The notes under the pieces are model-generated. The model made no database searches, was not told the DNA's origin, and was given only the letters and a program-made list of their open reading frames with translations. Shown here piece after piece: positions 50,165-64,000 of a stretch of 64,000 bases of DNA. Numbering within the stretch: position 1 is the first letter of the stretch; each line of letters opens with the position of its first letter. Position numbers and translations under genes: made by a program. Source of the DNA: Cryobacterium fucosi (GTDB lineage: Bacteria; Actinomycetota; Actinomycetes; Actinomycetales; Microbacteriaceae); contig NZ_SOHH01000075.1 in NCBI RefSeq assembly GCF_004403515.1, positions 1 to 64,000 on the forward strand, written 5' to 3'.

Positions 50165-50213
50165 TGATGGATGAGTGCATCGACAACGATCACCGCACCG
50201 ACGGAGAGCCCTC

Positions 50214-51029
50214 ATGAGCGAAGACACCGACACCGTGCGCGAGGCAGTACGCGCCCGCTACGCCAGCGCGGCCCTGGCCGTGACCCGGCGGGACGCGACC
50301 CCGGCGGCCACCGCCGCGTGCTGCGGACCCAGCGACGGGGCGGATGCCGCGGCCGACTGCTGCGGACCGGCGTTCGTCGACGAGAGCCTCGTCTTCGGTG
50401 CCGCGCTCTACGACCCCGAATCGACCGGCGCCCTCCCCCAGGCGGCCGTGCTGGCCAGCCTCGGCTGCGGCAACCCCACGGCGGTCGCCGACCTCCGCCC
50501 CGGAGAAACCGTGCTCGACCTCGGCTCCGGCGGAGGAATCGACGTGCTCCTCTCCGCCCGCCGGGTCGGTCCCACCGGGTTCGCCTACGGCGTCGACATG
50601 ACCGACGAAATGCTCGACCTCGCCCGGGCCAACGCCGCGGCCGCGCACGCCGAGAACGTCGAGTTCCGGAAGGGAACGATCGAGGACCTCCCGCTGCCCG
50701 ACGCCGGCATCGACGTCGTGATCTCCAATTGCGTGATCAACCTGTCCACGGACAAGCCGGCCGTGCTCCGGGAGATGTTCCGGGTGCTCGTTGCGGGCGG
50801 CCGGGTCGGAGTGTCCGACGTGGTGGCCGAGAACCAGCTCAGCCCGGCCGAGCGGGCCGCCCGAGGCTCGCACGTCGGCTGCATCGCCGGCGCACTCTCG
50901 GTGGAGGAGTACACGAACGAACTCGGCCGGGCCGGTTTCGAGCAGGTGAGCGTCAGCCTCACCCACGAGGTCGCTCCCGGCATGCACGGTGCGATCGTGC
51001 GAGCCGTCAAGCCGCTCGACGCCGTCTGA
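50214..51029 (+). CDS. arsM: Arsenite methyltransferase
   Basis: A 271-residue SAM-dependent methyltransferase that methylates As(III) for detoxification. SAM site [20 protein letters not shown]; arsenite-binding cysteines fit ISNCVINLS and HVGCIAGAL, and the N-terminal ACCGPSD ... DCCGP cysteine pairs (36-37, 49-50) are typical of the bacterial clade. ATG 50214 has GGAGAG upstream. No ars pump or reductase is nearby; an ArsR-type operator precedes it, so it may belong to a dispersed arsenic regulon. Confidence 0.92.
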
Positions 51030-51114: not shown

Positions 51115-52011
51115 TCAGACGACGGGCGGCACCCGCAGCAGGGCACCCTCCTCGCGGCAGGTGGCGGCCGCGATGCGCATGGCGTCGGCCAGCAGGCGCT
51201 GCCAGCCGGTGGCATCCGTGGGCACGCCCTGGGTCAGGAACGTCTGCACGCTGGAGGCCAGGGTCGCATCGCCCGCGCCCATCGTGTCGACCACGGCGCC
51301 GGGAAGCGGGCTGATCGGTTCGCTCACGAGCAGGCCGTCGTCGGTCTCGATCGTCGCCCCGTCGCGCCCGGCGGTCGCCAGCACGTGGTGGGCTCCGGCG
51401 GCCACGAGCCGGGTCCGCAGTTCGGCCAGGGTGCTGCCGTAGAGCAACTCGGCGTCTTCGTCACCGACCTTGGTCAGCAGGCTGCGGGCGGCGGCGCGCT
51501 CGAAGTTACGCACGAACGCCTCGCGGTCGGCGAGCATGCCGGCCCGCGGGTTCGGGTCGATCACCAGACGCCGCTCCGGGTCGGCGACCGCCGCGAGGAA
51601 GGCGTCGGTCTGGGCCGTGTCGTCGAACGGGAAGCAGCTGACGACCACCAGGCTCGCGGCGTCGAGGGCGGCGCGCTCGGCCTCGCCGAACTCGATCCGG
51701 CGCTTTTTCGCGGCCTCGTTGAAGGCGTAGCGCGGCTCGCCGTCCGTGCGGTCCGAGGTGGCGCGCGAACTGCCGTGCGGGCCGGGAGTGGCGACCAGGG
51801 CGACGTCGTGGGCGGCGAGGAAGTCCCGGAGCACCGCGCCGTCCGAGTCGTCGCCGACCATGGCGATCAGCGTCGTCGGAACGCCGAGCACGGCCAGGCC
51901 GACGGCCACGTTCAGGGCTGCGCCGCCCGGGAATTCACGGAGGGACTCCACGTCGCGCAGTTCGTCGATGAGTGCGTCGCCGACGACGACGACACGGTTT
52001 GTTTCAGTCAT
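51115..52011 (-). CDS. PfkB-family carbohydrate kinase (fructokinase-like)
   Basis: A 298-residue ribokinase-family kinase. N-terminal FPGGAALNVAVGLAVLGVPTTLIAMVGDD is PfkB signature 1; DTMGAGDATLASSVQTFL is signature 2 with the catalytic Asp. The sugar, probably fructose or a related hexose, is inferred from family resemblance. It overlaps by eight bases the LacI remnant upstream, so the pair is a decayed regulator-kinase operon. Confidence 0.9.
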   Translation of the reverse strand: MTETNRVVVVGDALIDELRDVESLREFPGGAALNVAVGLAVLGVPTTLIAMVGDDSDGAVLRDFLAAHDVALVATPGPHGSSRATSDRTDGEPRYAFNEAAKKRRIEFGEAERAALDAASLVVVSCFPFDDTAQTDAFLAAVADPERRLVIDPNPRAGMLADREAFVRNFERAAARSLLTKVGDEDAELLYGSTLAELRTRLVAAGAHHVLATAGRDGATIETDDGLLVSEPISPLPGAVVDTMGAGDATLASSVQTFLTQGVPTDATGWQRLLADAMRIAAATCREEGALLRVPPVV

Positions 52012-52378
52012 TCGGTCTTATCTCCCCTGATCCGCGAGCAATCAGCTCGGTTGGCACGATATAGGTCTTCCCGATGGTGCGGTCACCATCGAGCCGTGCG
52101 AAAACACGTTCGGCGGCCAGCCGTCCGATGCCCTGGGGGTCCTGGGCGACGACGGTGATGCCCGGGTCGAGCAGGTCGGCCAGCGGCACGTCGTCGAAGC
52201 CGATCAGCGCCACCGTGCGGTGCAGCCCGAGGGCGCGGAGCGCCCGGATGGCACCGATGGTGACGAGGTGCTGGCTGCTGAAGATCGCCCGCGCGGCCGC
52301 CTCCTCGTCGTGCAGCCCGGGGGTGCCGCGGCTCGCGGCTTGCAACATGCTGAACGCCGCAAAAGGGTCGCCCCACAT
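52004..52378 (-). pseudogene. LacI-family regulator remnant (effector domain only)
   Basis: The 124-codon frame ends with the typical LacI C-terminus: IFSSQHLVTIGAIRALRALG, VALIGFDDVPLADLLDPGITVVAQD and GRLAAERVF. About 210 N-terminal residues including the helix-turn-helix are missing, and the nominal start lies within the terminator hairpin of the small gene at 52416-52577, so no genuine start exists. A deletion removed the front half. It would have controlled the adjacent sugar kinase. Confidence 0.87.
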
Positions 52379-52803: not shown

Positions 52804-53682
52804 CTACTGTTCGCTCTGGAACGCACCGAGCTCGGCGGAGAGCTCCCGTGCGATTCGGGCCGTCAGCGCGCCGACCTCCTCGAGGTGCGCTCCCAGGCGG
52901 GGTTTTGGGGCCGACACGTTGATCGCCGCCACGATGTTCTGACGAAAATCGAGGACCGGTGCCGAGACACCCACCACTCCCTTCTCGAATTCCTCGTTCA
53001 CCGTGGCATAGCCGTGCGCGCGGATCCGGAGCATCTCCGTCCGGAACCCGGCGAAATCCGTGATCCGCGGCCGGCCCTGGCGCGGCGGAAGCGACTCCAG
53101 CCCCCCTGCCGGGTTGGCGACTGTCGCGAACGGGCGGAGCACCGCGGTGTCGTGTCCATGAACGTCGTACCACCGGCGCAGGTCCTCGTCGGCCCAATCG
53201 CTGACCAGGACCCGGCCCGATGAGGTCTGCCACGCCGCGGTACTGACGCCCTCCCAGCCGACCCCCCGGAACGCGTATTCGCTCATCTGACTCGAGAGCG
53301 TCAGCACGTTGCCGCCGCGCAGCACGCACAGGTTCGCCGTCTCCCGGGTGGCGGTGACCACGCGCCGCAGGTAGGGCACGGATGCCCGCACCAGTTGGGC
53401 CTCCAAGGTGCGCGCGGCGAGCGCGTAGAGCTGGTAGCCCAGGCGGTAGTTCTGCGTCACCGGATCCCTGGCCACCAGGCCGACCTCGGCGAGCGTTGCC
53501 AGGGTGCGGGACACGATTCCCTTGTCCCTGTTCACCAGCTCGGCAACCCTCACCACCCCCAGCCCGCCGGACGATTCGGCCTCAGCGGACCCGAGGGCCT
53601 CCATCAACTCGAAATCACGCCGGAGTCCGGCCGAATTCCGGCGTGGCCCCGGGGCGACCGCGGGGCTGGTGTCCTCCATCAT
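52804..53682 (-). CDS. IclR-family transcriptional regulator
   Basis: A 292-residue regulator. N-terminal winged helix around GLGVVRVAELVNRDKGIVSRTLATLAEVGLVARD and a C-terminal GAF-like effector domain with NVLTLSSQMSEYAFRGVGWEGVSTAAWQTSSGRVL. Start ATG 53682 lies seven bases after TATAGT on the minus strand and lacks a Shine-Dalgarno; ATG 53679 is equally possible. Divergent from the quaternary-amine importer and the catabolic genes behind it, which it most likely controls. Effector unknown. Confidence 0.92.
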   Translation of the reverse strand: MMEDTSPAVAPGPRRNSAGLRRDFELMEALGSAEAESSGGLGVVRVAELVNRDKGIVSRTLATLAEVGLVARDPVTQNYRLGYQLYALAARTLEAQLVRASVPYLRRVVTATRETANLCVLRGGNVLTLSSQMSEYAFRGVGWEGVSTAAWQTSSGRVLVSDWADEDLRRWYDVHGHDTAVLRPFATVANPAGGLESLPPRQGRPRITDFAGFRTEMLRIRAHGYATVNEEFEKGVVGVSAPVLDFRQNIVAAINVSAPKPRLGAHLEEVGALTARIARELSAELGAFQSEQ

Positions 53683-53689
53683 GGATGCG

Positions 53690-53732
53690 ACTATAACCGT
53701 CAGTTGCCATATGCACAACGACAGTTGCGCAA
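53690..53732. promoter_or_regulatory. IclR promoter and candidate operators
   Basis: Minus-strand TATAGT (53695-53690) is the -10 candidate of the IclR gene. Beside it lie CAGTTGC at 53701 and 53722 as direct repeats, the dyad TTGCCATATGCACAA (53704-53718) and the palindrome TTGCGCAA (53725-53732). These AT-rich dyads are the likely IclR binding sites. Confidence 0.5.
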
Positions 53733-53828
53733 ATAAGAACCGTCTCGTAGCCTCGTTCTATTCGACGGTCGTTTCGGTTCCGAGCCGACCTCAACTCAAC
53801 TCAACGAAGAGTGAAGGAGGAAGCATCC

Positions 53829-54494
53829 GTGACGGAATTTGATTTCACCGGGCTGCTGACGTTCTGGGCGCGCCGCTGGGACGACATCCTCGGGCTGGTC
53901 GTCGAGCACGTCACCGTCGTTGCCGTCGCCCTCGTCATCGCCATGGCGATCGGCGTCGGCATCGGCATGCTGGTCTGGAACCGCCCCATCCCCCGCTCAG
54001 TCACGATCGCGGCCGCCGGCGTGGCGCTGACCGTTCCGTCCCTCGCGCTGCTGGCCATCCTGATCCCGCCCTTCGGCCTGGGCTGGACCCCCACGGTGAT
54101 CGCCCTGGTCGTCTACTCTCTGCTCCCGATCGTGCGCAACACCGTCGTCGGACTGCGGGAAGTTCCGCCCGCCATCATGGAGTCCGCCAAGGGGATGGGG
54201 ATGAGCCCGGTCAAGGTGCTCTTCAGCATTCAGCTCCCGATGGCCTGGCCGGTGATTCTCACCGGGGTGCGCGTCGCTGCCCAACTCACCGTCGGAATCG
54301 CGGCAATCGCCGCGTACGTCGCCGGCCCGGGCCTGGGGGCTTTCATCTTCAAGGGATTGTCGTCACTCGGCTCCAAGAACGCCCTCAACTTCGCCCTCAC
54401 CGGCACCCTGGGCGTCGTCATCCTCGCGCTCCTGATCGACGCGATCTTCGTCGCAATCACCCGTTCCACAACCTCAAGGGGACTCCGTGCCTAA
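53829..54494 (+). CDS. Quaternary-amine ABC transporter permease 1 (OpuCB-like)
   Basis: A 221-residue permease with about five helices and the EAA-like loop REVPPAIMESAKGMGMSPVKVLFSIQLPMAWPVILTGVR. Family members import glycine betaine, choline or carnitine. GTG 53829 has AAGGAGG eight bases upstream. First gene of the island; its end overlaps the ATPase gene by eight bases. Confidence 0.92.
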   Translation: MTEFDFTGLLTFWARRWDDILGLVVEHVTVVAVALVIAMAIGVGIGMLVWNRPIPRSVTIAAAGVALTVPSLALLAILIPPFGLGWTPTVIALVVYSLLPIVRNTVVGLREVPPAIMESAKGMGMSPVKVLFSIQLPMAWPVILTGVRVAAQLTVGIAAIAAYVAGPGLGAFIFKGLSSLGSKNALNFALTGTLGVVILALLIDAIFVAITRSTTSRGLRA

Positions 54495-55548
54495 GCCAGC
54501 AGACACCGCCATCATGCAGATCGCCCGCAACACCAGCGGCGCACGCATCGTGCTCGACGGCGTCACCAAGACCTACCACAACCAGCCGATCGCTGCGGTG
54601 GAGAACTTCTCGATGACCGTGGAGCCGGGCGAACTGATCATGTTCGTCGGTCCCAGCGGCTGCGGTAAGACCACAACCATGAAGATGATCAACCGCATCA
54701 TCGAACCGACCAGCGGCTCCATCTCCATTGACGGGCGGGACGTGCTCTCGCTCGACCCGAACGAACTCCGCCGCCACATCGGGTACGTGATCCAGCAGAT
54801 CGGGTTGTTCCCCCACATGACGATCGCCGAAAACGTCGCCGTCGTGCCCAGGCTGCTTGGCTGGAGCAAGGCGAAGACCACCGAACGCGTCGAGGAACTG
54901 CTCGCCACGGTGGAGCTCGAGCCATCCGAATTCGCTGGCCGTTACCCCAAACAACTGTCCGGTGGCCAGCAGCAGCGGGTCGGGGTGGCCCGCGCCCTCG
55001 CTGCGGACCCGCCTGTGATGCTCATGGACGAGCCGTTCGGCGCGACGGACCCGATCACCAGGGAGAAGCTCCAGGCCGAATTCCTGCGGCTTCAGGAATC
55101 GCTGGGTAAGACCATCATCTTCGTCACCCACGACTTCGACGAGGCCGTGCGCCTGGGCGATCGCATCGCCGTGCTGAGCAACCGAAGCCAAATCGAACAG
55201 TTCGACACCCCCGCGAACATCCTGACCAGCCCCGCAAACGACTACGTCGCCTCCTTCATCGGGCATGGTGCCGCGATCAAGCGCCTCGTCCTCATCCCCG
55301 TCACAGAGGCGAAACTCGGTCCGGTCGGCCAGTCAGCCGGCGGGCCGATCACGGTCAGCGTGGACGACTCCCTGCGCGACGCGCTGGACTCGCTCGTGCT
55401 CACCGGGCTCCCGGCCCTGACCGTTGTCGACCGGTCTGAGAGGCCGGTCGGATCGATCAGCGTCGACCGCATCTCGGCGGTGCTCGGAGCCGAGGTTCCG
55501 ATCGCCCCCGTGGCGCGGCGGAGCGCCGGCACCGGCCAGGGGGCATGA
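54487..55548 (+). CDS. Quaternary-amine ABC transporter ATPase (OpuCA-like)
   Basis: A 353-residue ATPase energising the importer. Walker A GPSGCGKTT, signature LSGGQQQRVGVARALA, Walker B PVMLMDEPFGATDP and H-loop VTHDFDEA. The C-terminal about 70 residues (VDDSLRDALDSLVLTGLPAL) look like one CBS module, which in OpuA-type systems senses ionic strength, so osmotic gating is possible. GTG start. Overlaps both permease genes. Confidence 0.93.
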   Translation: MPKPADTAIMQIARNTSGARIVLDGVTKTYHNQPIAAVENFSMTVEPGELIMFVGPSGCGKTTTMKMINRIIEPTSGSISIDGRDVLSLDPNELRRHIGYVIQQIGLFPHMTIAENVAVVPRLLGWSKAKTTERVEELLATVELEPSEFAGRYPKQLSGGQQQRVGVARALAADPPVMLMDEPFGATDPITREKLQAEFLRLQESLGKTIIFVTHDFDEAVRLGDRIAVLSNRSQIEQFDTPANILTSPANDYVASFIGHGAAIKRLVLIPVTEAKLGPVGQSAGGPITVSVDDSLRDALDSLVLTGLPALTVVDRSERPVGSISVDRISAVLGAEVPIAPVARRSAGTGQGA

Positions 55549-56333
55549 CCATGACCCTCGATGCCACCCGCCAGATGCTGGCGATCCGGCAGCCGCCCAG
55601 TCCTCGCCACGCATTCTTCACGAGAACCCGGTTCGTGACCCCGCTCGTGGTTGTCCTCGTGCTCGGTCTGACCCTCCTGTGGCTCTCAAGCCTGAACCTG
55701 GACTCGATTGAACAACGCACCCTCAACCTGGACTACATCGTCGCACGGACTCGCGAGCACCTCGGCCTGACCGTGGTTGCCTCGGCGCTCGTCGCCGTGC
55801 TCGCGATTCCCACCGGCGTCGCCTTGAGCCGCACGAAATCCCGCGTCGTGCGGGCAATCGTCCTCGGTCTCGCCAACATCGGTCAGGCCACTCCCGCCGT
55901 CGGCGTCATCATCCTGCTGGCGATCGTGTGGAAGACCGGCTACACCACCGCCCTCGTCGCGCTCGTCGTCTATTCCTTTCTCCCGGTGCTGCGCAACACC
56001 CTCGTCGGACTGCAGCAGATCGACGAGAGCGTGCGCGAGTCCGCGAAGGGCATGGGGATGACCCGCAATCAGGTGCTGCTGAGGATCGAGCTGCCGCTCG
56101 CGGTCCCGGTGATTCTCGCCGGCCTCCGCACGTCCCTCGTCTTCGCCGTGGGCGTCGCCACCATCGCGACCTTCATCAACGCCGGCGGTCTCGGCGACAT
56201 GATCGTCAACGGCCTGAAGCTGCAGCGCTACCCGGTGCTGATCACCGGCGCGGTGCTCGTCGCCTCCATCGCCCTGCTGATCGACTGGATAGCAGGCATT
56301 GCCGAAGACCTGCTTCGCCCACGCGGCATCTAG
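55545..56333 (+). CDS. Quaternary-amine ABC transporter permease 2 (OpuCD-like)
   Basis: A 262-residue permease; an N-terminal helix (about 32-52) precedes a five-helix core with QQIDESVRESAKGMGMTRNQVLLRIELPLAVPVILAGLR. ATGA overlap with the ATPase gene. Together with permease 1 it forms the membrane channel. Confidence 0.92.
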   Translation: MTMTLDATRQMLAIRQPPSPRHAFFTRTRFVTPLVVVLVLGLTLLWLSSLNLDSIEQRTLNLDYIVARTREHLGLTVVASALVAVLAIPTGVALSRTKSRVVRAIVLGLANIGQATPAVGVIILLAIVWKTGYTTALVALVVYSFLPVLRNTLVGLQQIDESVRESAKGMGMTRNQVLLRIELPLAVPVILAGLRTSLVFAVGVATIATFINAGGLGDMIVNGLKLQRYPVLITGAVLVASIALLIDWIAGIAEDLLRPRGI

Positions 56334-56402
56334 CCCTCCCCAGCCGCACCTCCTCCACCTCCACTCACTACACCCACAGCGCACCACCCAAAAGGAGTAA
56401 TC

Positions 56403-57347
56403 ATGAATAAACGGACCACCCTCTCGCTGCTGGCCATCGCGGCCCTCGGCACGTTGGCGCTCAGCGCCTGCTCTGGCGCGGCATCCTCCGGCGGATCCGC
56501 CGCCGGGAAGGGCGACGAGGTCGCCGGCCTCACGGGCACCATCGGGGCCAAGGACTTCTCTGAGCAGTTCATCCTCGCCTACCTCACCAGCGAACTGCTC
56601 AACGCCCACGGCGCGAAGACCGAGGCCAACACGAAGGTCGTCGGATCCGCAAACGTTCGAGCGGCACTCGAGAGCGACGACTTCATGGGCTACTGGGAGT
56701 ACACCGGCACGTCCTGGATCACCTACAACAAGAACACCGCGCCCGTGCAGGGCGAGGAGGCCCAGTTCGAGGCCACCAAGGAAGCGGACGCGAAGAACGG
56801 GATCGCCTGGCTCGACCCGGCCCCGCTCAACAACACCTACGCCTTCGCCATCCGCTCCGACAAGGCCAAGGAGCTTGGGGTCACCTCGCTGAGCGACATC
56901 GCCGCGCTGCCGGCCAAGGAACAGACCTTCTGCATCGAGAGCGAATTCTCGACCCGCGATGACGGCTGGCCCGGGCTCAAGAAGGCCTACGGCATCGACG
57001 CGCCGGACTCCAACGTCGCGCTGCTCGACACCGGCGTCATCTACACGGCCACCCAGAAGGGCGACGACTGCAACTTCGGCGAGGTATTCCAGACCGACGG
57101 TCGCATCAAGGCGCTCGACTTGACCGTGATGAAGGACGACGAGGCATTCTTCCCCGTCTACCAGGGCGCATTCACGCTCAAGCAGACCACCCTCGACAAA
57201 TACCCGGGAATCGCCGACGTGATGGCGCTGCTGTCGCCGAAGCTCACCACCGAGGTCATGCAGGCCCTCAACGCGCAGGCGGATGTCGACGGAGACGACC
57301 CCGAGGACATCGCCCGCGACTGGCTGACCGAAGAGGGACTGATCTAG
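56403..57347 (+). CDS. Quaternary-amine substrate-binding lipoprotein (OpuCC-like)
   Basis: A 314-residue lipoprotein. Lipobox ALSAC with Cys23; mature domain of the OpuAC/OsmX type with IGAKDFSEQFILAYLTSELLNAHGAKTE and the aromatic-rich FMGYWEYTGTSWITY stretch, a candidate cation-pi cage for a trimethylammonium group. AAAAGGAG precedes the ATG. The Fae-like gene starts on the base after its stop codon, tying uptake to metabolism. Confidence 0.92.
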   Translation: MNKRTTLSLLAIAALGTLALSACSGAASSGGSAAGKGDEVAGLTGTIGAKDFSEQFILAYLTSELLNAHGAKTEANTKVVGSANVRAALESDDFMGYWEYTGTSWITYNKNTAPVQGEEAQFEATKEADAKNGIAWLDPAPLNNTYAFAIRSDKAKELGVTSLSDIAALPAKEQTFCIESEFSTRDDGWPGLKKAYGIDAPDSNVALLDTGVIYTATQKGDDCNFGEVFQTDGRIKALDLTVMKDDEAFFPVYQGAFTLKQTTLDKYPGIADVMALLSPKLTTEVMQALNAQADVDGDDPEDIARDWLTEEGLI

Positions 57348-57857
57348 GTGCCGCAGGCCCTTCAAATCGGCGAGAGCTTTGTTGGCGACGGCGTCAACGC
57401 CGCCCACGTCAACACTGTCTTCGGACATCGCGAAGGGCCGGCGGGGGTGGCCTGGGCTTCGGCCCTGGCCACCCCGAGCCAGGGGCACGTTCCCTTCGTG
57501 ACCGTGCTCCGACCATCGCTTCCGGTCAAGCCGCTCACCCTGTTCGTCACCAAGGCGGCGCCCACCGGCGACGCCCACGGACTCCTCATCTGGGGTCCCG
57601 CCCAGGCCGGCATCGCCGCCGGAGTGGCCGAAGCTCTGGCCGACGGGGTCATCTCCCGGGAGGAAGCCGACTCCCACGTCATCATCGCGGCGGTCTGGGT
57701 CAACCCCGGTGCCGACGACGCCGAAACGGTCTACGCGAACAACCGGCTGTCGGTGCGCACTGCCCTGGAGAACGGCGCCCGCAGCCTCCCCGACACCGAC
57801 GAGGTCATCGCGGCCCGCTCCACCCCGACCAATCCGTTCTTCACCCCGCAGACCTAG
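57348..57857 (+). CDS. fae: Formaldehyde-activating enzyme (Fae) homologue
   Basis: A 169-residue protein with the length and conserved frame of Fae, which in methylotrophs condenses formaldehyde with tetrahydromethanopterin. It opens QIGESFVGDGVNAAHVNTVFG (catalytic-type His20), followed by WGPAQAGIAAGVAEALADGVI and SVRTALENG near the end. Tetrahydromethanopterin is not expected in this lineage, so the real carrier or aldehyde may differ. GTG start directly after the transporter stop, GAGGG upstream. Position before an enolase-superfamily enzyme suggests an aldehyde released during breakdown of the imported compound. Confidence 0.85.
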   Translation: MPQALQIGESFVGDGVNAAHVNTVFGHREGPAGVAWASALATPSQGHVPFVTVLRPSLPVKPLTLFVTKAAPTGDAHGLLIWGPAQAGIAAGVAEALADGVISREEADSHVIIAAVWVNPGADDAETVYANNRLSVRTALENGARSLPDTDEVIAARSTPTNPFFTPQT

Positions 57858-57882
57858 TGCCTGCAGAACCAGGAAGCCCCAC

Positions 57883-58986
57883 ATGTTGATCACGGCCATC
57901 CGCCTGACCCGGCTGAGCCTCCCCCTCGACCCCCCGTTCCACGCGGCGTGGGACCCGAACCCACGGACGTCCTTCCCGGCGACCCTCGTCGAGGTGGAAA
58001 CGGACAGCGGCCTGGTCGGGGTCGGTTCGGGCGACACCATGGACGGGTTCGAAGCCTACGAAGACCTCTTCCTCGGAACGGACCCGCTCCAGATCCTCAA
58101 CCAGGTTCGGCGGATCGAGACGATCAATTTCCACGGCGGCCGCTACTGGCCCCTCGAGGCCGCGCTGTGGGACATCGTGGGCCAGATTGCCGGCCTTCCG
58201 GTCAGCGTGCTCTTCGGCGGGGCCAGGGACCGGCTGCGGGCCTACGCCTCCTGCGGCGAGCTGAAGGCACCGGCGGCCCGGGCGGAGTCGGCCCTGGCCG
58301 CCCGCGAACGCGGCTTTCGCGCCATGAAGATCCGCATCTCCCGCACCGGCATCGCCGAGGGAATCGCCGCGGTTCGCGCCACCCGCGACGCCGTCGGCGA
58401 CGATTTCGACATCATGGTCGACCTCAATCAGATGTGGCGGATGAGCGGTGACATCGAGGCAGCGCTCCCTCTGGCCCAGGTACGGCGTGTCGCGGCCGAG
58501 CTGAATGATCTCGGCGTTCTTTGGCTCGAGGAACCGCTGCCGCAGGCAGACATCGTCGGTGCCCGTCGCGTGCGCGCAGAGACGGGAATCCAGGTCGCCG
58601 GCGGGGAGATGGTTCGCACCATGACCGAGCTGGCCGCCCTGATCGAGGCGGACGCCTACGACATCTACCAGCCGGACGTCGTGCTCGCCGTGGGCATGTA
58701 CCGGGCGAGGCAGGTCGCCGAGTCGGCCAACCTCCGCCACCGCCTCTTCACGCCCCACACCTGGAGCAACGGACTCGGCCTTCTCGCCAACCTGCACGTC
58801 GCAGCCGGCGTCGACGCCGGCCCGTACCTCGAGTTCCCCTACGATCCTCCGGGCTGGACCCCCGAGCGACGGGACTTCTTCATGGAACCGCTCGACATCG
58901 ACTCACACGGCAACCTGCTGGTGCCGGCCACCCCGGGGCTCGGCGCCCGGATCGACTGGGATGCCGTCAGGAGGTACACCGTATGA
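57883..58986 (+). CDS. Enolase-superfamily (mandelate racemase/MLE-like) enzyme
   Basis: A 367-residue TIM-barrel enzyme with a capping domain. Base motif KxR in AMKIRIS (about 148), metal ligands Asp in MVDLNQMW, Glu in WLEEPLPQ and Glu in VAGGEMV, and a catalytic His candidate in RLFTPHTWSNGLGLLANLH. These enzymes abstract a proton next to a carboxylate: racemisation, epimerisation or dehydration. Substrate not readable; the transporter suggests an N-methylated acid, comparable to the betaine epimerases of this superfamily. AGGAAG before ATG 57883; ATGA overlap with the next gene. Confidence 0.85.
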   Translation: MLITAIRLTRLSLPLDPPFHAAWDPNPRTSFPATLVEVETDSGLVGVGSGDTMDGFEAYEDLFLGTDPLQILNQVRRIETINFHGGRYWPLEAALWDIVGQIAGLPVSVLFGGARDRLRAYASCGELKAPAARAESALAARERGFRAMKIRISRTGIAEGIAAVRATRDAVGDDFDIMVDLNQMWRMSGDIEAALPLAQVRRVAAELNDLGVLWLEEPLPQADIVGARRVRAETGIQVAGGEMVRTMTELAALIEADAYDIYQPDVVLAVGMYRARQVAESANLRHRLFTPHTWSNGLGLLANLHVAAGVDAGPYLEFPYDPPGWTPERRDFFMEPLDIDSHGNLLVPATPGLGARIDWDAVRRYTV

Positions 58987-60488
58987 CCGACTGGATCGCC
59001 CGCGCGAACGCACTCACCCCTGAGACACGGTTGTTCATCGACGGAGAGTTCCGCCCAGCGCTCGACGGAGCCACGTTCGACACCATCGCACCTCGCCACG
59101 GCCGGTTCATCGCCGCGGTCAGCGCCGCCGGCGAGGCGGATGTCGACGCCGCGGTGCGGGCCGCCGCACGCGCGTTCGAATCCGGCGTCTGGTCCCGGGC
59201 CGACCGCCGGCAGCGCCAGCGGGTGCTCCTGCGACTCAGCGACCTCATGCTCGAAAACCTCGACGAGCTGGCCCTGCTCGAGTCGATCGACTCCGGCCAC
59301 CCGATCGGCGATGCCCGAGGAGTGGACGTCCCCAACGCGGCGCGCACCGTGCGCTGGTATGCGGAAGCCATCGACAAGGTCTACGACGAAGTCGCCCCGA
59401 CTCCGCGCAACGCACTGGCACTGGTGACGCGGGAGGCGCTCGGCGTCATCGGTGCCGTCGTTCCCTGGAACTACCCGCTGATCATCACCGCATGGAAGAT
59501 CGCGCCGGCTCTCGCGGCCGGGAACTCGGTCGTCCTGAAACCTGCCGAACTCACCAGCCTGTCCGCGCTCAAGCTCGCCGAGCTCGCCGCCGAGGCCGGG
59601 CTTCCGGCCGGGGTCCTGAGTGTCGTGCCCGGGTTCGGCCCGGTGGCCGGGCAGGCGCTCGGGCGGCATCCGCTGGTCGATAAGATCACCTTCACCGGTT
59701 CACCTGCCGTCGGCCGGGGATTCCTCAGCTACGCCGGGGAATCGAACGGCAAACAAGTTGCCCTCGAACTCGGCGGGAAGTCCCCGCAGGTCGTGCTCGC
59801 AGACGTGGATGACATCGCCGCGTGCGCGTCCTCCGTCGCCTGGGGCATCTTCTACAACTCGGGGCAGACCTGCCACGGCGGCAGCCGGCTGATCGTCGAC
59901 GAGCGCGTGCACGACGAGCTCGTCGCGGAGGTCATCAAGGTCGGCCGGGAGCTCGTGCTCGGCGACCCGCTCAACGAATCCACGCAGATCGGCGCGATCG
60001 CCAGCGCACGGCAGCTCGAACGAGTACTGGCCTATACGGACATCGCCGAGTCGGAGGGCGCGATCGTCTACGGTGGCCGACGGGTGCGACCGGAGGGCCT
60101 GGATGAGGGCTACTACGTCGAACCCACGGTGTTCACCGGGGTCGACAACGCCGGACGGATCGGCCAGGAGGAGATCTTCGGCCCCGCCCTGGCGGTAACG
60201 ACCGTGCGGGGCGCCGCGGAGGCCGTGCGCGTGGCGAACCAGAGCGAATACGGACTCGCCGCGAGTGTCTGGACCTCGAACATCACCACCGCCCACACCG
60301 TGGCCCGGGAGCTCAACGCGGGCACCGTCTGGGTCAACACCTTCGACGTGGCCGATGTGATCACCCCGTTCGGCGGGTTCAAGAACTCGGGAAATGGCCG
60401 CGATCGCTCGCTGCACGCCTTCGATGCCTACACGGCACTGAAAACCACCTGGATCAACCTGGGCGACTCGCCCCTGAGCAACAACTGA
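58983..60488 (+). CDS. Aldehyde dehydrogenase (PuuC/betaine-aldehyde type)
   Basis: A 501-residue aldehyde dehydrogenase. VIGAVVPWNYPLIITAWKIAPALAAGNSVVLKPAE, FTGSPAVG, general base Glu in ALELGGKSP, catalytic Cys in FYNSGQTCHGGSRL. Resembles enzymes oxidising amino- or trimethylamino-aldehydes. ATG 58983 overlaps the enolase-family stop. It may oxidise an aldehyde formed after cleavage of the imported amine. Confidence 0.92.
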   Translation: MTDWIARANALTPETRLFIDGEFRPALDGATFDTIAPRHGRFIAAVSAAGEADVDAAVRAAARAFESGVWSRADRRQRQRVLLRLSDLMLENLDELALLESIDSGHPIGDARGVDVPNAARTVRWYAEAIDKVYDEVAPTPRNALALVTREALGVIGAVVPWNYPLIITAWKIAPALAAGNSVVLKPAELTSLSALKLAELAAEAGLPAGVLSVVPGFGPVAGQALGRHPLVDKITFTGSPAVGRGFLSYAGESNGKQVALELGGKSPQVVLADVDDIAACASSVAWGIFYNSGQTCHGGSRLIVDERVHDELVAEVIKVGRELVLGDPLNESTQIGAIASARQLERVLAYTDIAESEGAIVYGGRRVRPEGLDEGYYVEPTVFTGVDNAGRIGQEEIFGPALAVTTVRGAAEAVRVANQSEYGLAASVWTSNITTAHTVARELNAGTVWVNTFDVADVITPFGGFKNSGNGRDRSLHAFDAYTALKTTWINLGDSPLSNN

Positions 60489-60501
60489 GAAAGCGAAACC
60501 A

Positions 60502-61428
60502 ATGACCTCTGCATCGCCGACCCGCGTCGGTTTCATCGGCCTGGGCAACATGGGCTCCGGAATGACCCGCAACCTCCAGCGCGCGGGATTCGAACTCGTC
60601 GTCAACGACATCCGCCGGGAATCGGCCGCCGAGCTCATCGCCGGCGGCGCGGTCTGGGCGAACACTCCGGCCGAAGCCGCGGCGCAGAGCGACGTGGTCA
60701 TCACCATGTTGCCCACACCGCGCCACGTCGACACCGTCGTGAACTCACCGACCGGGATCCTGGCCGGCATCCCCGACGGCGGCACCTGGGTCGATATGTC
60801 GACCTCCGTGCCGGAGGTGGCCCAGCGCGTGCGCGCCGAGCAGTCCACGCGTGGTCTGCACATCCTGGACGCCCCGGTGAGCGGGATGGCCGTCGGGGCC
60901 GCCAACGGGATGCTGCAGATCTTCATCGGCGGGGAGACGGACGACGTCGAACGGCTGCGGCCGGTGTTCGAGGCGATGGGGGACCCGGAGCGCATCCTGC
61001 ACGTGGGCGCCGCCGGGTCGGGCTACGCGGTCAAGCTCATGATCAATCAGCTGTGGTTCTCCCACCTGGTCGCGACCGCCGAGGTGCTCAGCATCGGCGT
61101 CAAGGCGGGAGTGGATCTCGACGTGTTGCGCAGGTCCTTGATCGCGAGCCCCGCCAACAGCAACTTCGTGCAGCACGATGTGCTGTCCGTCCTCGAAAAC
61201 GGCGACTACGACGAGGGCTTCGCGATCGCCCTGGCCTGCAAGGATCTCGGCCTCTCGATCGACCTGGCCCGTTCGGTCGGAGTGCCCGCCGAGCTCAGTG
61301 GTCTGGTCGAGCAGATCTACCGCCGCGCCCGCGCCCAATACGGTGACCGCGCAGGAGAGATGACGCCCATGAAGCTTTACGAGGACCTGATCGGCGTCGA
61401 ACTCCGTCTCGAAACGGTCACGGCATGA
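60502..61428 (+). CDS. 3-Hydroxyisobutyrate dehydrogenase-like beta-hydroxyacid dehydrogenase
   Basis: A 308-residue NAD(P) oxidoreductase. GFIGLGNMGSGMTRNL is the Rossmann motif (residues 9-24), DAPVSGMAVGAANG the substrate loop, and the catalytic Lys lies in GSGYAVKLMINQ. The family includes tartronate-semialdehyde, glyoxylate/succinic-semialdehyde reductases and 3-hydroxyisobutyrate dehydrogenase. Thirteen bases after the aldehyde dehydrogenase; ATGA overlap with the alcohol dehydrogenase gene that follows. Confidence 0.9.
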   Translation: MTSASPTRVGFIGLGNMGSGMTRNLQRAGFELVVNDIRRESAAELIAGGAVWANTPAEAAAQSDVVITMLPTPRHVDTVVNSPTGILAGIPDGGTWVDMSTSVPEVAQRVRAEQSTRGLHILDAPVSGMAVGAANGMLQIFIGGETDDVERLRPVFEAMGDPERILHVGAAGSGYAVKLMINQLWFSHLVATAEVLSIGVKAGVDLDVLRRSLIASPANSNFVQHDVLSVLENGDYDEGFAIALACKDLGLSIDLARSVGVPAELSGLVEQIYRRARAQYGDRAGEMTPMKLYEDLIGVELRLETVTA

Positions 61429-62642
61429 TCGCGCCGGTTGGCGTCGGCCGGGCCCGTACCGGCCTCGCGCCATTGCCACGCCCGCTGTCCGAGTCCGAGT
61501 TGACGCTCGACCCGAAACCGATCGCCTACTTCGGGCGGGGCAAAGTCAGCGAGGTCGGTCGGATCACAGCCGCCACGGGAGCCACCCGGGCCCTCATCGT
61601 CACCGACCCGTTCCTCGCGTCCTCCCCGGTTGTCGAAGCCGTCCGCAGCTCGCTCGAACTCGCCGGCCTGGCCGTGACCGTCTACGGCGGGGTAACCCCC
61701 AACCCGACGACAACGTGCGTGGACGAGGGCAGCGATCTCGCGGCATCCGTCGCCGCCGAGGCCATCGTGGCCGTCGGCGGCGGCTCGTCGATGGACGCCG
61801 CCAAGGGGATCTCCCTCGGCGCGGTCAACCCTGAGCGAGGCATCGGTCTGGACTACACCACCCGGTTCGCCAGGCCTGCCTTGCCGATCGTGGCCGTGCC
61901 CACCACGGCCGGGACCGGCGCGGAGGTGAACGCGTTCGGCGTGATCACGGATGTCGTGAGCCACCGTAAGTTCTACGTCGGCCACGACAGCGCCCTCGCC
62001 CGTGCCGCGGTGCTCGACCCCGAGCTGACGGTTGGCCTGCCCCCGGGTGCGACCGCGGCCACCGGGATGGACGCGCTCACCCACGCGCTCGAGTCGTACC
62101 TCTCCATCCGGGCCAACCCGTACAGCGACGGAATCGCCCTCCAGGTCATCTCGACGGTCGCGGCGTTCCTGCCGCGCGCGGTCGCAGACGGCACCGACCT
62201 CGAGGCCAGGGCCGAACTGCTGCTCGCGAGCCATGTGGCGGGCGTCGGCTTCTCTCACACCGGTCTCGGGCTCGTGCACGGCATCGCGCATCCGCTCGGC
62301 GGCCAGTTCAACATCCCGCACGGCCTGGCCCTCTGCATCGTGATCGAGGCCGTGCTCCGGTTCAACCTGGCGGCGAGGGAGGACCGGATCGCCCGGGTCT
62401 CGTTCGCCCTCGGCGCCGGCGACACCGCGGCGACCACCGCGGAGAACGCCGAGGCAGCCATTCTGGCCATCGCCGACCTCGCCCTGGCGGTCGGCATGAC
62501 CGGCCCCCTGGCGAAATTCGGCGTGACCGAAGACGCTCTGGCCTCCCTGGCCGCGGATACCCTCGCCGACGCGGTGACCGTCAATAACCCCATCCAGCCC
62601 AGCATCGACGACGTGATGCGCATCCTCAAGGAATCCCTGTGA
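61425..62642 (+). CDS. Iron-containing alcohol dehydrogenase
   Basis: A 405-residue group III alcohol dehydrogenase. GGVTPNPTTTCVDEG, VAVGGGSSMDAAKGISL (NAD binding), VPTTAGTGAEVNAFGVI, metal ligands in ATGMDALTHALESYLS and GLVHGIAHPLGGQFNIPHG. The clade includes 4-hydroxybutyrate dehydrogenases and hydroxyacid-oxoacid transhydrogenases, which yield succinic semialdehyde, a fitting substrate for the next gene. ATG start overlapping the upstream gene, and a 4-base overlap with the next aldehyde dehydrogenase. Confidence 0.92.
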   Translation: MIAPVGVGRARTGLAPLPRPLSESELTLDPKPIAYFGRGKVSEVGRITAATGATRALIVTDPFLASSPVVEAVRSSLELAGLAVTVYGGVTPNPTTTCVDEGSDLAASVAAEAIVAVGGGSSMDAAKGISLGAVNPERGIGLDYTTRFARPALPIVAVPTTAGTGAEVNAFGVITDVVSHRKFYVGHDSALARAAVLDPELTVGLPPGATAATGMDALTHALESYLSIRANPYSDGIALQVISTVAAFLPRAVADGTDLEARAELLLASHVAGVGFSHTGLGLVHGIAHPLGGQFNIPHGLALCIVIEAVLRFNLAAREDRIARVSFALGAGDTAATTAENAEAAILAIADLALAVGMTGPLAKFGVTEDALASLAADTLADAVTVNNPIQPSIDDVMRILKESL

Positions 62643-64000
62643 CCAGCACCGCCGGAACGACCATCACCGCCGAAGCCGAACGCGCCCTGCTCGCCAGCGT
62701 TCCGACCGGGTTGTTCATCGGCGGCCAGTGGCGGGAGGCCGCTGACGGCGGCACCTTCGACGTGCGCGACCCGTCCACCGGGGACGTGCTGCTGAGCATC
62801 GCCGACGCCACGCCCGCCGACGGCGACGCTGCCCTGGCGTCCGCTTTCGCCGCCCAGAAGGGCTGGGCGAAGACGGCCCCGAGGCTGCGTGCGGAAATCC
62901 TGCGCACGGCCTTCGAGGCGGTGACCGCCCGCGCCGACGACTTTGCCCTGCTGATGACCCTGGAGATGGGCAAGCCGCTCGCAGAGGCGCGTGGGGAAGT
63001 CGCCTACGGCGCCGAGTTCCTGCGCTGGTTCTCCGAGGAGACCGCTCGGATCTCGGGTCGATTCGCCACCGCGCCCGACGGCGCCAGTCGGCTGCTGGTG
63101 ACCAAGCGACCGGTCGGACCGTGCCTGTTCATCACCCCGTGGAACTTCCCTCTGGCGATGGCCACCCGCAAGATCGCCCCCGCGATTGCGGCCGGCTGCA
63201 CCATGGTTCTCAAGCCCGCCGCCCTCACCCCGCTCACCGCGCTTCTGTTCGCTCAGGTCCTGCAGGAATCCGGGCTCCCTGCCGGGGTGCTCAACGTGGT
63301 GCAGACCACGAATGCCGGCCCGGTCACGGCGCCTCTCATCCAGGACCCCCGGCTGCGCAAGCTGTCCTTCACCGGCTCGACCGAGGTCGGCCGCCGCCTG
63401 ATCAAGGATGCGGCCGACCAGGTGCTTCGGGTGTCGATGGAGCTCGGCGGCAATGCGCCGTTCCTCGTCTTCGACGATGCGGACCTCGACAAGGCCGTGG
63501 CAGGCGCGATGCTGGCGAAGATGCGCAACGGCGGCGAGGCCTGCACCGCGGCGAACCGCATCCTCGTGCACGAGGGTGTCGCCGAGGAATTCACCGAGAA
63601 GCTGCTCGAACGGATGCGGGCCCACACTGTCGCCCGCGGCACCGACCCTGCCTCGAAAATCGGTCCGCTTGTCGACGAGGGCACCCGCACAAAGGTGCAT
63701 GAACTCGTCACGGACGCCGTTGACAGGGGCGCAACCCTTGCCCTCGGCGGACGGAGCGTCGACGGCCCCGGCTACTTCTACGAGCCCACCGTGCTCACCC
63801 ACGTCCCGGCGGACGCGCGGATCATGTCGGAGGAGGTCTTCGGGCCCGTCGCCCCGATCCTGACGTTCGCCACAGAGGCGGAGGCCATCCGTCTCGCCAA
63901 CGACACGGAATTCGGGCTTGTCGCCTACGCGTTCACCCGGGACCTCAACCGCGGGCTGCGGCTGGCCGAAGAACTCGAGGTCGGCATGTTCGGCCTGAAC
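62639..64000 (+). CDS. Succinate-semialdehyde dehydrogenase-like ALDH, cut by window end
   Basis: The first 454 codons of an aldehyde dehydrogenase; the frame is open to the last base, so perhaps 30 residues are missing. Begins GTG 62639 in an overlap with the alcohol dehydrogenase stop. Visible: FITPWNFPLAMATRKIAPAIAAGCTMVLKPA, FTGSTEVGRRLI, MELGGNAPFLVFDDADLDKA and catalytic Cys in NGGEACTAANRI, all typical of succinate-semialdehyde dehydrogenases (GabD). It would feed succinate to the TCA cycle. Last visible member of the island; more genes may follow. Confidence 0.88.
   Translation, partial: MTSTAGTTITAEAERALLASVPTGLFIGGQWREAADGGTFDVRDPSTGDVLLSIADATPADGDAALASAFAAQKGWAKTAPRLRAEILRTAFEAVTARADDFALLMTLEMGKPLAEARGEVAYGAEFLRWFSEETARISGRFATAPDGASRLLVTKRPVGPCLFITPWNFPLAMATRKIAPAIAAGCTMVLKPAALTPLTALLFAQVLQESGLPAGVLNVVQTTNAGPVTAPLIQDPRLRKLSFTGSTEVGRRLIKDAADQVLRVSMELGGNAPFLVFDDADLDKAVAGAMLAKMRNGGEACTAANRILVHEGVAEEFTEKLLERMRAHTVARGTDPASKIGPLVDEGTRTKVHELVTDAVDRGATLALGGRSVDGPGYFYEPTVLTHVPADARIMSEEVFGPVAPILTFATEAEAIRLANDTEFGLVAYAFTRDLNRGLRLAEELEVGMFGLN

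Follow-up and report, generated by a model that had tools for sequence, protein, structure and literature searches.

A conserved actinobacterial operon with two exchangeable modules may degrade the glycerol-ether headgroup of betaine lipids

Several described systems each share a part with the locus reported here. Choline oxidation by GbsA/GbsB in Bacillus combines an iron-type alcohol dehydrogenase (Fe-ADH) and a betaine-aldehyde-type aldehyde dehydrogenase (ALDH) with an OpuC-type importer, and formaldehyde-activating enzyme (Fae) is known from methylotrophs and methanogens. Mandelate-racemase-type members of the enolase superfamily act on 2-hydroxyacids, and the sugar-acid dehydratases among them expel water. 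Ether-lipid synthesis uses the flavoprotein alkyl-dihydroxyacetone-phosphate (DHAP) synthase (AGPS) together with an acyl/alkyl-DHAP reductase, which is a short-chain dehydrogenase/reductase (SDR). In algae and bacteria short of phosphorus, betaine lipids take the place of phospholipids; in one of these lipids, diacylglyceryl-N,N,N-trimethylhomoserine (DGTS), the headgroup is the glycerol ether of N,N,N-trimethylhomoserine, a betaine with a straight C4 chain that could lose its amine to give fumarate. Here we describe a catabolic operon next to an IclR-family regulator gene of Cryobacterium fucosi, in positions 1 to 64,000 of contig NZ_SOHH01000075.1 (assembly GCF_004403515.1; this 64,000-nucleotide stretch is ‘the window’), and its relatives in other bacteria.

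We propose that this operon, which is widely conserved, serves to import and degrade glyceryl-N,N,N-trimethylhomoserine, the headgroup of DGTS after fatty-acid loss, a reading that we hold to be probable on balance. A glycerol-ether betaine as the kind of substrate is well supported by comparison with related loci, and the exact compound moderately so; N,N,N-trimethylhomoserine was chosen because it is compatible with an ether linkage to glycerol, with an unbranched C4 skeleton and with loss of the amine to give fumarate. The sequences themselves show which genes are present and occur together, the exchange of A and B, the kept residues and an operator-like element common to the loci; from sequence comparison we infer the substrate, each reaction and their order as follows. 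The OpuC importer would bring in the quaternary-ammonium glycerol ether, which would be cleaved by one of two modules. With module A, present in the window, Fe-ADH and a first aldehyde dehydrogenase (ALDH1) would oxidize the free CH2OH to a carboxylate, giving a 3-O-alkyl-glycerate, from which an enolase-superfamily enzyme would take the alpha proton and expel the ether oxygen, yielding pyruvate and trimethylhomoserine. With module B, present in other species, ether-lipid synthesis would run in reverse: an FGGY kinase would phosphorylate the glycerol, an SDR would oxidize the C2 hydroxyl and an AGPS-like flavoprotein would split the resulting alkyl-DHAP analogue into DHAP and trimethylhomoserine. 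In the core shared by both routes, a 3-hydroxyisobutyrate dehydrogenase (HIBADH)-like enzyme would form a C4 semialdehyde and a succinate-semialdehyde dehydrogenase (SSADH)-like enzyme (ALDH2) the acid, with elimination of trimethylamine before or after the latter step, the Fae homologue as the proposed lyase and fumarate as the end product.

As the original prediction for this locus had described, ten plus-strand genes (53811–64141; Table 1) lie beside a divergent IclR gene. All are intact, and successive genes of the ten are spaced by −8, −4, 69, 0, 25, −4, 13, −4 and −4 bases. The last, encoding ALDH2, stops 141 bases beyond the window, in adjoining sequence. The host genome measures 3.44 Mb and is 99.99% complete.

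A scan of named genomes with the Fae homologue gave 325 relatives, the best 80 of which were kept and joined with the window’s own locus into a set of 81 actinobacterial loci; Fae is present in the 80 by construction, and they lean to close kin. Genes were called by chosen identity thresholds (for example, 50% for ALDH2 and 45% for the enolase), and residue conservation was counted over distinct sequences. The gene caller used on the loci missed many known genes and gave antisense ghosts, and most small clusters (c12 on) were set aside. A near-constant core of IclR, OpuC importer, Fae, HIBADH-like and SSADH-like genes was complete in 65 of the 81 loci (IclR in 75, binding protein in 76, HIBADH in 75, ALDH2 in 71). 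Gaps in the core fell mostly at contig ends; otherwise the OpuC importer was lacking from L115, L118 and L119 and ALDH2 from L059, L089 and L109, and L120, away from contig ends, had no HIBADH, ALDH2 or importer, its IclR being visible by Pfam. All three module A genes without B were found in 32 loci, and all three module B genes (SDR, a flavoprotein with FAD_binding_4 and FAD-oxidase_C domains, and FGGY kinase, not in the window) without A in 36. Two loci (L107 and L116) had B plus the enolase, five carried part of one module at contig or stretch ends, and six had neither module (L065 and L075, which are cut, and L061, L115, L118 and L119, which are not). With a complete A or B module in 70 of 81 loci, the two modules replace each other.

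The same pattern appeared across whole genomes. Of 394 genomes of the class, ten contained Fae and eight the enolase (E ≤ 1e-50), the eight all being among the ten with Fae (hypergeometric 3.4e-15, a value that ignores kinship, the eight genomes belonging to four genera only), an association beyond chance. The module B flavoprotein (E ≤ 1e-80) occurred in a single genome of the class, one with Fae and without enolase; another of the ten (G079) had neither enolase nor flavoprotein. Within the genus, 12 of 57 genomes carried Fae, 11 of them, the window’s included, at an identity of at least 84%. Gene order was retained in nine of the ten other loci with a close Fae orthologue (L026–L035); ALDH2 was not found alongside in L032 and L034, and L035 held the core only. 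A neighbourhood check pairing Fae with the enolase had been put forward with the original prediction, and its outcome, a gene set conserved together in relatives, favours a dedicated island for an N-methylated carboxylate with a C4-semialdehyde step, as predicted. The further exit to succinate did not hold up as well: the pathway probably ends at fumarate and its substrate is probably the glycerol ether of a betaine.

The two modules also appear to share their control. IclR was present in 75 of the 81 loci, five of the remaining six being cut short. Dyads had been noted between the IclR gene and the operon; in the window alone these are short (four 6-base pairs), and across loci one is conserved, CAAC-N4-GTTG, within a 31-base element. 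In the 69 of 81 loci for which both a divergent IclR gene and the start of an importer or Fae gene were available, the strict form occurred in 43 (0.16 after shuffling) and a relaxed form, CAAC-N4/5-NTTG, in 64 (1.8 after shuffling), divided by class into 33 of 34 loci with A, 26 of 28 with B, 5 of 5 with the core and 0 of 2 with B plus enolase. Because the long IclR frame would begin, with TTG, inside this element, translation of IclR probably begins at the ATG at 53682 instead. IclR would control the gene set by binding this element, and the presence of A and B enzymes under the same element and with the same importer suggests the same task accomplished by two routes.

The importer is complete and of OpuC type, with an OpuAC binding protein, two permeases and a ProV-type ATPase (TIGR01186, 333.6 bits against a cut-off of 326.6) whose CBS domain scores 22.1 bits, slightly below the cut-off of 24. 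Osmoprotection/ProX, OsmF, EgtU and choline-type binders are the closest solved structures of the binding lipoprotein. Its residues Tyr97, Trp98, Tyr100, Trp105, Tyr108, Trp136, Tyr196, Tyr214 and Tyr253, candidates for an aromatic cage around a trimethylammonium group as read from the alignment, were kept in all 80 distinct sequences. The quaternary-amine importers found with these genes come from two unrelated families, OpuC (Actinomycetota and Enterococcus) and BCCT (Vibrio). Of the two core dehydrogenases, the HIBADH-like protein (TIGR01692, 191.6 bits, under the curated cut-off of 291.6) keeps Asn182 and the catalytic Lys178 in all 82 distinct sequences, and ALDH2 has Arg177, Glu268, Cys302, Arg307 and Ser459 in 71 of 71; we take the Cys and Glu to be catalytic and the two Arg and the Ser to bind a carboxylate.

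The Fae homologue resembles Fae of methylotrophs and methanogens in its family score (TIGR03126, 142.7 bits, above the curated cut-off of 118.05) and its conserved His, but differs from them in residues and setting. His20 and Asn22 were present in all 89 distinct sequences of at least 30% identity, whereas the residue two past the His is Asp in both pterin-type Fae proteins compared (structure 1y5y, presumably Fae of M. extorquens, and an Azoarcus protein); the comparison covers these two, and Asn is also found in the 27%-identical Fae of L036. We take the His-x-Asp motif to lie near the active site. The Azoarcus gene sits in a pterin-pathway cluster, unlike the importer–dehydrogenase operon described here. 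Mch (PF02289) had no match in the host genome, the same search picking out three of 14 control genomes, each of them archaeal; because there was no match to Mch, the sole marker used, we saw no sign of the tetrahydromethanopterin pathway in this genome. A mycothiol-dependent formaldehyde dehydrogenase is encoded on another contig (C54), and the Pfam and NCBIfam matches of the operon proteins included no demethylase family. These results do not support the formaldehyde handling that had been ascribed to this locus. We consider it roughly an even call that the Fae homologue is instead a lyase eliminating trimethylamine; by working on an amine adjacent to an aldehyde or acid, such a lyase would preserve the aldehyde–amine chemistry of the Fae family. 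The operon of L036 (genome G414) has the same importer, HIBADH and ALDH2, with its divergent Fae homologue located after ALDH2. In an Acidimicrobiaceae metagenome-assembled genome (L120:8871–14419), Fae is flanked by a zinc alcohol dehydrogenase gene on one side and module B on the other, with no HIBADH- or SSADH-like genes close by.

Module A would suit the same ether because oxidation of its terminal CH2OH to a carboxylate creates a 2-hydroxyacid. The enolase-superfamily protein, whose closest solved structure is galactonate dehydratase, keeps the KxR, D-N, E, E, D and H, E residues as in the mandelate-racemase subgroup. What we take to be its metal ligands (D, E, E), base Lys and His–Asp dyad were present in 41 of 42 distinct sequences (the His in 40 of 42), the remainder having no aligned residue there, and Lys149 and His292 were kept wherever the sequence covers the position. 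Unlike the sugar-acid dehydratases, which expel water, this enzyme is proposed to expel the ether oxygen. Its use as the amine lyase, in the style that we ascribe to methylaspartate ammonia-lyase, is disfavoured, as the core stands without the enolase in module B loci. ALDH1 is nearest the PuuC and betaine-aldehyde dehydrogenase families of NCBIfam, under their cut-offs (TIGR01804, 462.6 bits against 668.6), and Fe-ADH nearest lactaldehyde reductase, also under its cut-off. Both enzymes, although of the kinds found in GbsA/GbsB systems, score far under the choline and betaine-aldehyde cut-offs, and the enolase, Fae, HIBADH and SSADH-like genes are extra. Choline oxidation of the GbsA/B type was rejected on these scores, and it would leave the remaining enzymes unexplained.

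For module B, cleavage of a glycerol ether by way of a dihydroxyacetone-phosphate intermediate predicts a flavoprotein nearest AGPS. This prediction was set before the structural comparison and after its Pfam domains, which AGPS shares with glycolate/lactate oxidases (GlcD), had been seen. The best solved relatives of the flavoprotein were indeed AGPS structures (2uuu, E 8e-47; 4bby, 5e-46), with glycolate oxidase at 4e-26, and a search with E. coli YgcU likewise ranked AGPS first. Positions corresponding to R419, Y578 and H615–H617 of AGPS (numbering counted by hand along the 4bby alignment), which we assume to be active-site positions, were retained in 43 of the 44 distinct sequences; the remaining one lacks an aligned residue there. 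Among the matches listed in the literature searched, no paper citable for the roles of these residues was found. The module B flavoprotein, while retaining these residues of ether-lipid synthesis, is proposed to differ from AGPS in being bacterial, working in the cleavage direction and acting on a betaine ether, so that it would cleave an alkyl-DHAP-type ether as AGPS reversed; the window itself carries module A instead. The accompanying FGGY kinase is nearest XylB and the SDR nearest KduD families, all under cut-offs.

Plasmid records and the E. coli K-12 chromosome gave a wider view of these neighbourhoods. We examined the surroundings of 6 of 74 plasmid records with a match to the flavoprotein (many of the matches, at 26–32% identity, being other kinds of protein), of 4 of 26 with Fae and of 4 of 21 with a YgcS-type major facilitator superfamily (MFS) transporter, one of each four being unannotated. 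With K-12 standing for E. coli, a glycerol-3-phosphate antiterminator gene was near module B in three of six neighbourhood kinds (E. coli and Streptomyces clavuligerus by Pfam PF04309, and Enterococcus raffinosus, about 7 kb from the flavoprotein, by annotation). A quaternary-amine importer was near it in two (OpuC in Enterococcus, BCCT in Vibrio), and an aspartase/fumarase-family lyase with an ALDH and an alcohol dehydrogenase or aldo/keto reductase in two (Priestia and Vibrio). A Peribacillus plasmid (L152:8998–11556) encodes an 852-residue protein in which such a lyase, 57% identical to the Priestia one, is fused to a BCCT transporter. On S. clavuligerus pSCL4, the OpuC–Fae–HIBADH–SSADH core and module B occupy separate, distant sites, and in Caballeronia Fae is accompanied by an aldo/keto reductase and by an ALDH that shares 46% identity with ALDH2. 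Across the Priestia, Vibrio, Peribacillus, Caballeronia and pSCL4 clusters we read the same three functions, oxidation of an alcohol, oxidation of an aldehyde and a lyase step, as being carried by different proteins. Fae and the aspartase-family lyase seem to hold one and the same position in this set: although this amine-lyase superfamily is unrelated to Fae and not represented in the window’s operon, we propose that it would stand in for Fae in the Vibrio and Priestia clusters. On an Ensifer adhaerens plasmid (L153:8977–12983), consecutive genes encode a lyase, an ALDH and an aldo/keto reductase, alongside a peptide-type ABC importer and divergent dihydroxyacetone kinase genes.

The E. coli K-12 ygc cluster (ygcN-O-P, ygcQ-R-S-U-W, yqcE-ygcE) is a close counterpart of module B, with YgcU 59.5%, YgcW 60% and YgcE 43% identical to the proteins of L088. 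YgcS is 49% identical to the MFS transporter beside Fae in Leucobacter (L118), and YgcP belongs to the glycerol-3-phosphate antiterminator family. The 26 kb read around the cluster held no Fae, HIBADH, SSADH or OpuC gene. The stretch from ygcN to ygcE (L128:12658–23375) also encodes flavoproteins, a 4Fe-4S protein and an FAD/NAD(P) oxidoreductase, for which a glycerol-ether substrate offers no explanation. YgcS-type transporters are common to E. coli, Priestia, Caballeronia, Burkholderia, Leucobacter and the module A loci L037 and L038; Fae lay within 3 kb of the transporter in all eight Burkholderia and Caballeronia plasmid records that have it. Thirteen of the 21 records with this transporter are from Priestia; of the two of these whose surroundings were read, one has it with module B and the lyase and the other in a histidine-use cluster. 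In the latter, a P. megaterium plasmid (L155), a transporter 47% identical to the Leucobacter one lies between hut-like genes (histidine ammonia-lyase and urocanate hydratase), perhaps a cluster for histidine betaine or ergothioneine. No report of a function for YgcU, YgcW or YgcE was found among the matches listed in the literature searched, with most subscription journals outside its coverage. In the accessible part of one paper, YgcS overexpression raised nicotinamide mononucleotide production by an unclear mechanism (PMC8601175); in that of another, YgcU deletion was examined only for D-serine effects on secretion, with no change (PMC13012123).

Several observations sit uneasily with the proposed degradation of glyceryl-trimethylhomoserine. 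Four of the six module B neighbourhoods are without a lyase and four without a quaternary-amine importer; MFS transporters take the importer’s place in E. coli, Priestia and Ilyobacter, and no transporter adjoins B in S. clavuligerus. Electron-transfer flavoprotein genes lie near B in Enterococcus and Ilyobacter, which is unexpected if the AGPS-like step is redox-neutral; E. coli YgcQ and YgcR, annotated simply as flavoproteins, are presumably of this kind too. The two loci with B plus enolase have no operator element; L116 has no Fe-ADH or ALDH1 in the 4.2 kb past the enolase, and L107 ends within the enolase. The occurrence of a YgcS-type transporter with histidine-use genes and a Paroceanicella plasmid (L127:7381–10113), on which a 47% relative of the enolase adjoins an Fe-ADH with no Fae or such importer in the annotated stretch, point the same way. 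So do the core dehydrogenases: the HIBADH-like protein is closest to beta-hydroxyacid enzymes, ALDH2 scores under the SSADH cut-off (TIGR01780, 551.5 against 646.35 bits), and ALDH2 is not adjacent in L032, L034, L041, L042, L089 and L109.

The kinship of the HIBADH-like protein would be better met by another glycerol-ether betaine, chiefly the glyceryl hydroxymethyl-trimethyl-beta-alanine headgroup of the lipid DGTA. The HIBADH-like enzyme would then oxidize a true beta-hydroxyacid, as its best solved relatives (HIBADH and 2-hydroxymethylglutarate dehydrogenase) do, and the glycerol-ether argument applies equally. We nonetheless regard DGTA as unlikely, though foremost among the alternatives, since its alcohol would yield a branched, malonate-type product, while the straight-chain-type SSADH-like ALDH and the aspartase/fumarase-family lyases of related clusters suggest a skeleton shaped like succinate. 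Similarly unlikely is a quaternary-ammonium compound that carries a sugar or sugar acid. It would make the enolase, nearest galactonate and galactarate dehydratases, an ordinary sugar-acid dehydratase and would place the XylB-like kinase and KduD-like SDR on a sugar route, but the flavoprotein keeps AGPS active-site positions, the glycerol-3-phosphate antiterminator genes recur near it, and no aldolase family was among the matches of the operon proteins. The headgroup of a third lipid, DGCC, which we take to combine choline and glyoxylate, was set aside because it would leave the SSADH-like and lyase steps without a purpose; a homocholine/beta-alanine betaine route (oxidation, then elimination to 3-hydroxypropionate) was discarded as ALDH2 is SSADH-like and module B would have no role.

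Free homoserine betaine, an environmental osmolyte according to the accessible part of one report (PMC13403184), could itself be the substrate, with modules A and B doing unrelated side jobs. Consistent with this, L061, its duplicate L035 and L036 (with divergent Fae) have only the importer with Fae, HIBADH and ALDH2, and L115, L118 and L119 hold the three enzymes without OpuC; yet a complete A or B module in most loci and an operator-like element shared by 64 of 69 make unrelated roles improbable, and with them this substrate. Quite improbable, to our minds, is the route of the original prediction, in which an N-methylated carboxylate is demethylated, Fae deals with the formaldehyde and succinate is formed from a C4 semialdehyde. 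The Fae family score, the OpuC importer and the SSADH-like enzyme accord with it, but the results on Mch, the formaldehyde dehydrogenase and demethylases, and the replacement of Asp by Asn two residues past the His in all 89 sequences, do not, and modules A and B would be left without a role. Osmoprotectant uptake such as that of glycine betaine, with the neighbours there by chance, is the common job of OpuC-family importers and would have undone that prediction altogether; we think it most improbable here, as the catabolic genes are conserved together with the importer.

Neither DGTS headgroup catabolism nor a pathway with this gene set, nor anything of use on Fae together with betaines, was found among the matches listed in the literature searched, in keeping with the earlier view that no described pathway has this exact set. 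The glyceryl-trimethylhomoserine reading would make this the first recognized breakdown pathway for a betaine lipid, with two independent ether-cleaving chemistries (an enolase-superfamily beta-etherase and a reversed alkyl-DHAP synthase), a Fae relative acting as a trimethylamine lyase and E. coli YgcE, YgcW and YgcU forming the same glycerol-ether module; that all of this holds together we judge possible, if a shade less probable than its failing somewhere. If true, the operon fills a gap in betaine-lipid headgroup recycling, trimethylamine becomes a product of phosphorus-free membranes, Fae gains a role outside C1 metabolism, and ygcE, ygcW and ygcU gain a concrete, readily testable substrate. 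DGTS makes up 20–40% of membrane glycerolipids in snow-alga blooms, as stated in the accessible part of one study (PMC10657455).

Table 1 Features of the IclR-associated operon in window coordinates, with proposed roles
Feature	Position	Strand	Basis
IclR-family regulator	52804..53718	-	Pfam IclR_C 69.5 bits, HTH_IclR 22.9
Operator-like element, dyad CAAC-N4-GTTG	53704..53734 (core 53716-53727)	.	Conservation across loci
OpuC-type permease 1	53811..54494	+	BPD_transp_1; best NCBIfam ProW/ChoW, under cut-offs
OpuC-type ATPase with CBS-like domain	54487..55548	+	TIGR01186 proV, CBS
OpuC-type permease 2	55545..56333	+	BPD_transp_1
Substrate-binding lipoprotein, quaternary-amine type	56403..57347	+	OpuAC PF04069 184.5 bits
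Fae homologue, proposed trimethylamine lyase	57348..57857	+	TIGR03126
Enolase superfamily, mandelate-racemase type, proposed beta-etherase (module A)	57883..58986	+	MR_MLE_C
ALDH1, proposed glyceraldehyde-ether oxidation (module A)	58983..60488	+	Aldedh 527 bits
HIBADH-family dehydrogenase, proposed trimethylhomoserine oxidation (core)	60502..61428	+	NAD_binding_2, NAD_binding_11
Fe-ADH, proposed oxidation of glycerol CH2OH (module A)	61425..62642	+	Fe-ADH
SSADH-like ALDH2 (core)	62639..64141 (window holds to 64000)	+	TIGR01780

Judged from translations only, the region 3′ of ALDH2 encodes a DUF393-like protein and then an apparent respiratory oxidoreductase cluster. On the other side of the locus, translations likewise indicate a short minus-strand frame (52004–52378) that resembles only the C-terminal part of a LacI-type regulator, adjoins a PfkB-type kinase frame and looks like a remnant, and, at 50175–51029, a methyltransferase with paired-cysteine motifs that resembles arsenite methyltransferase.

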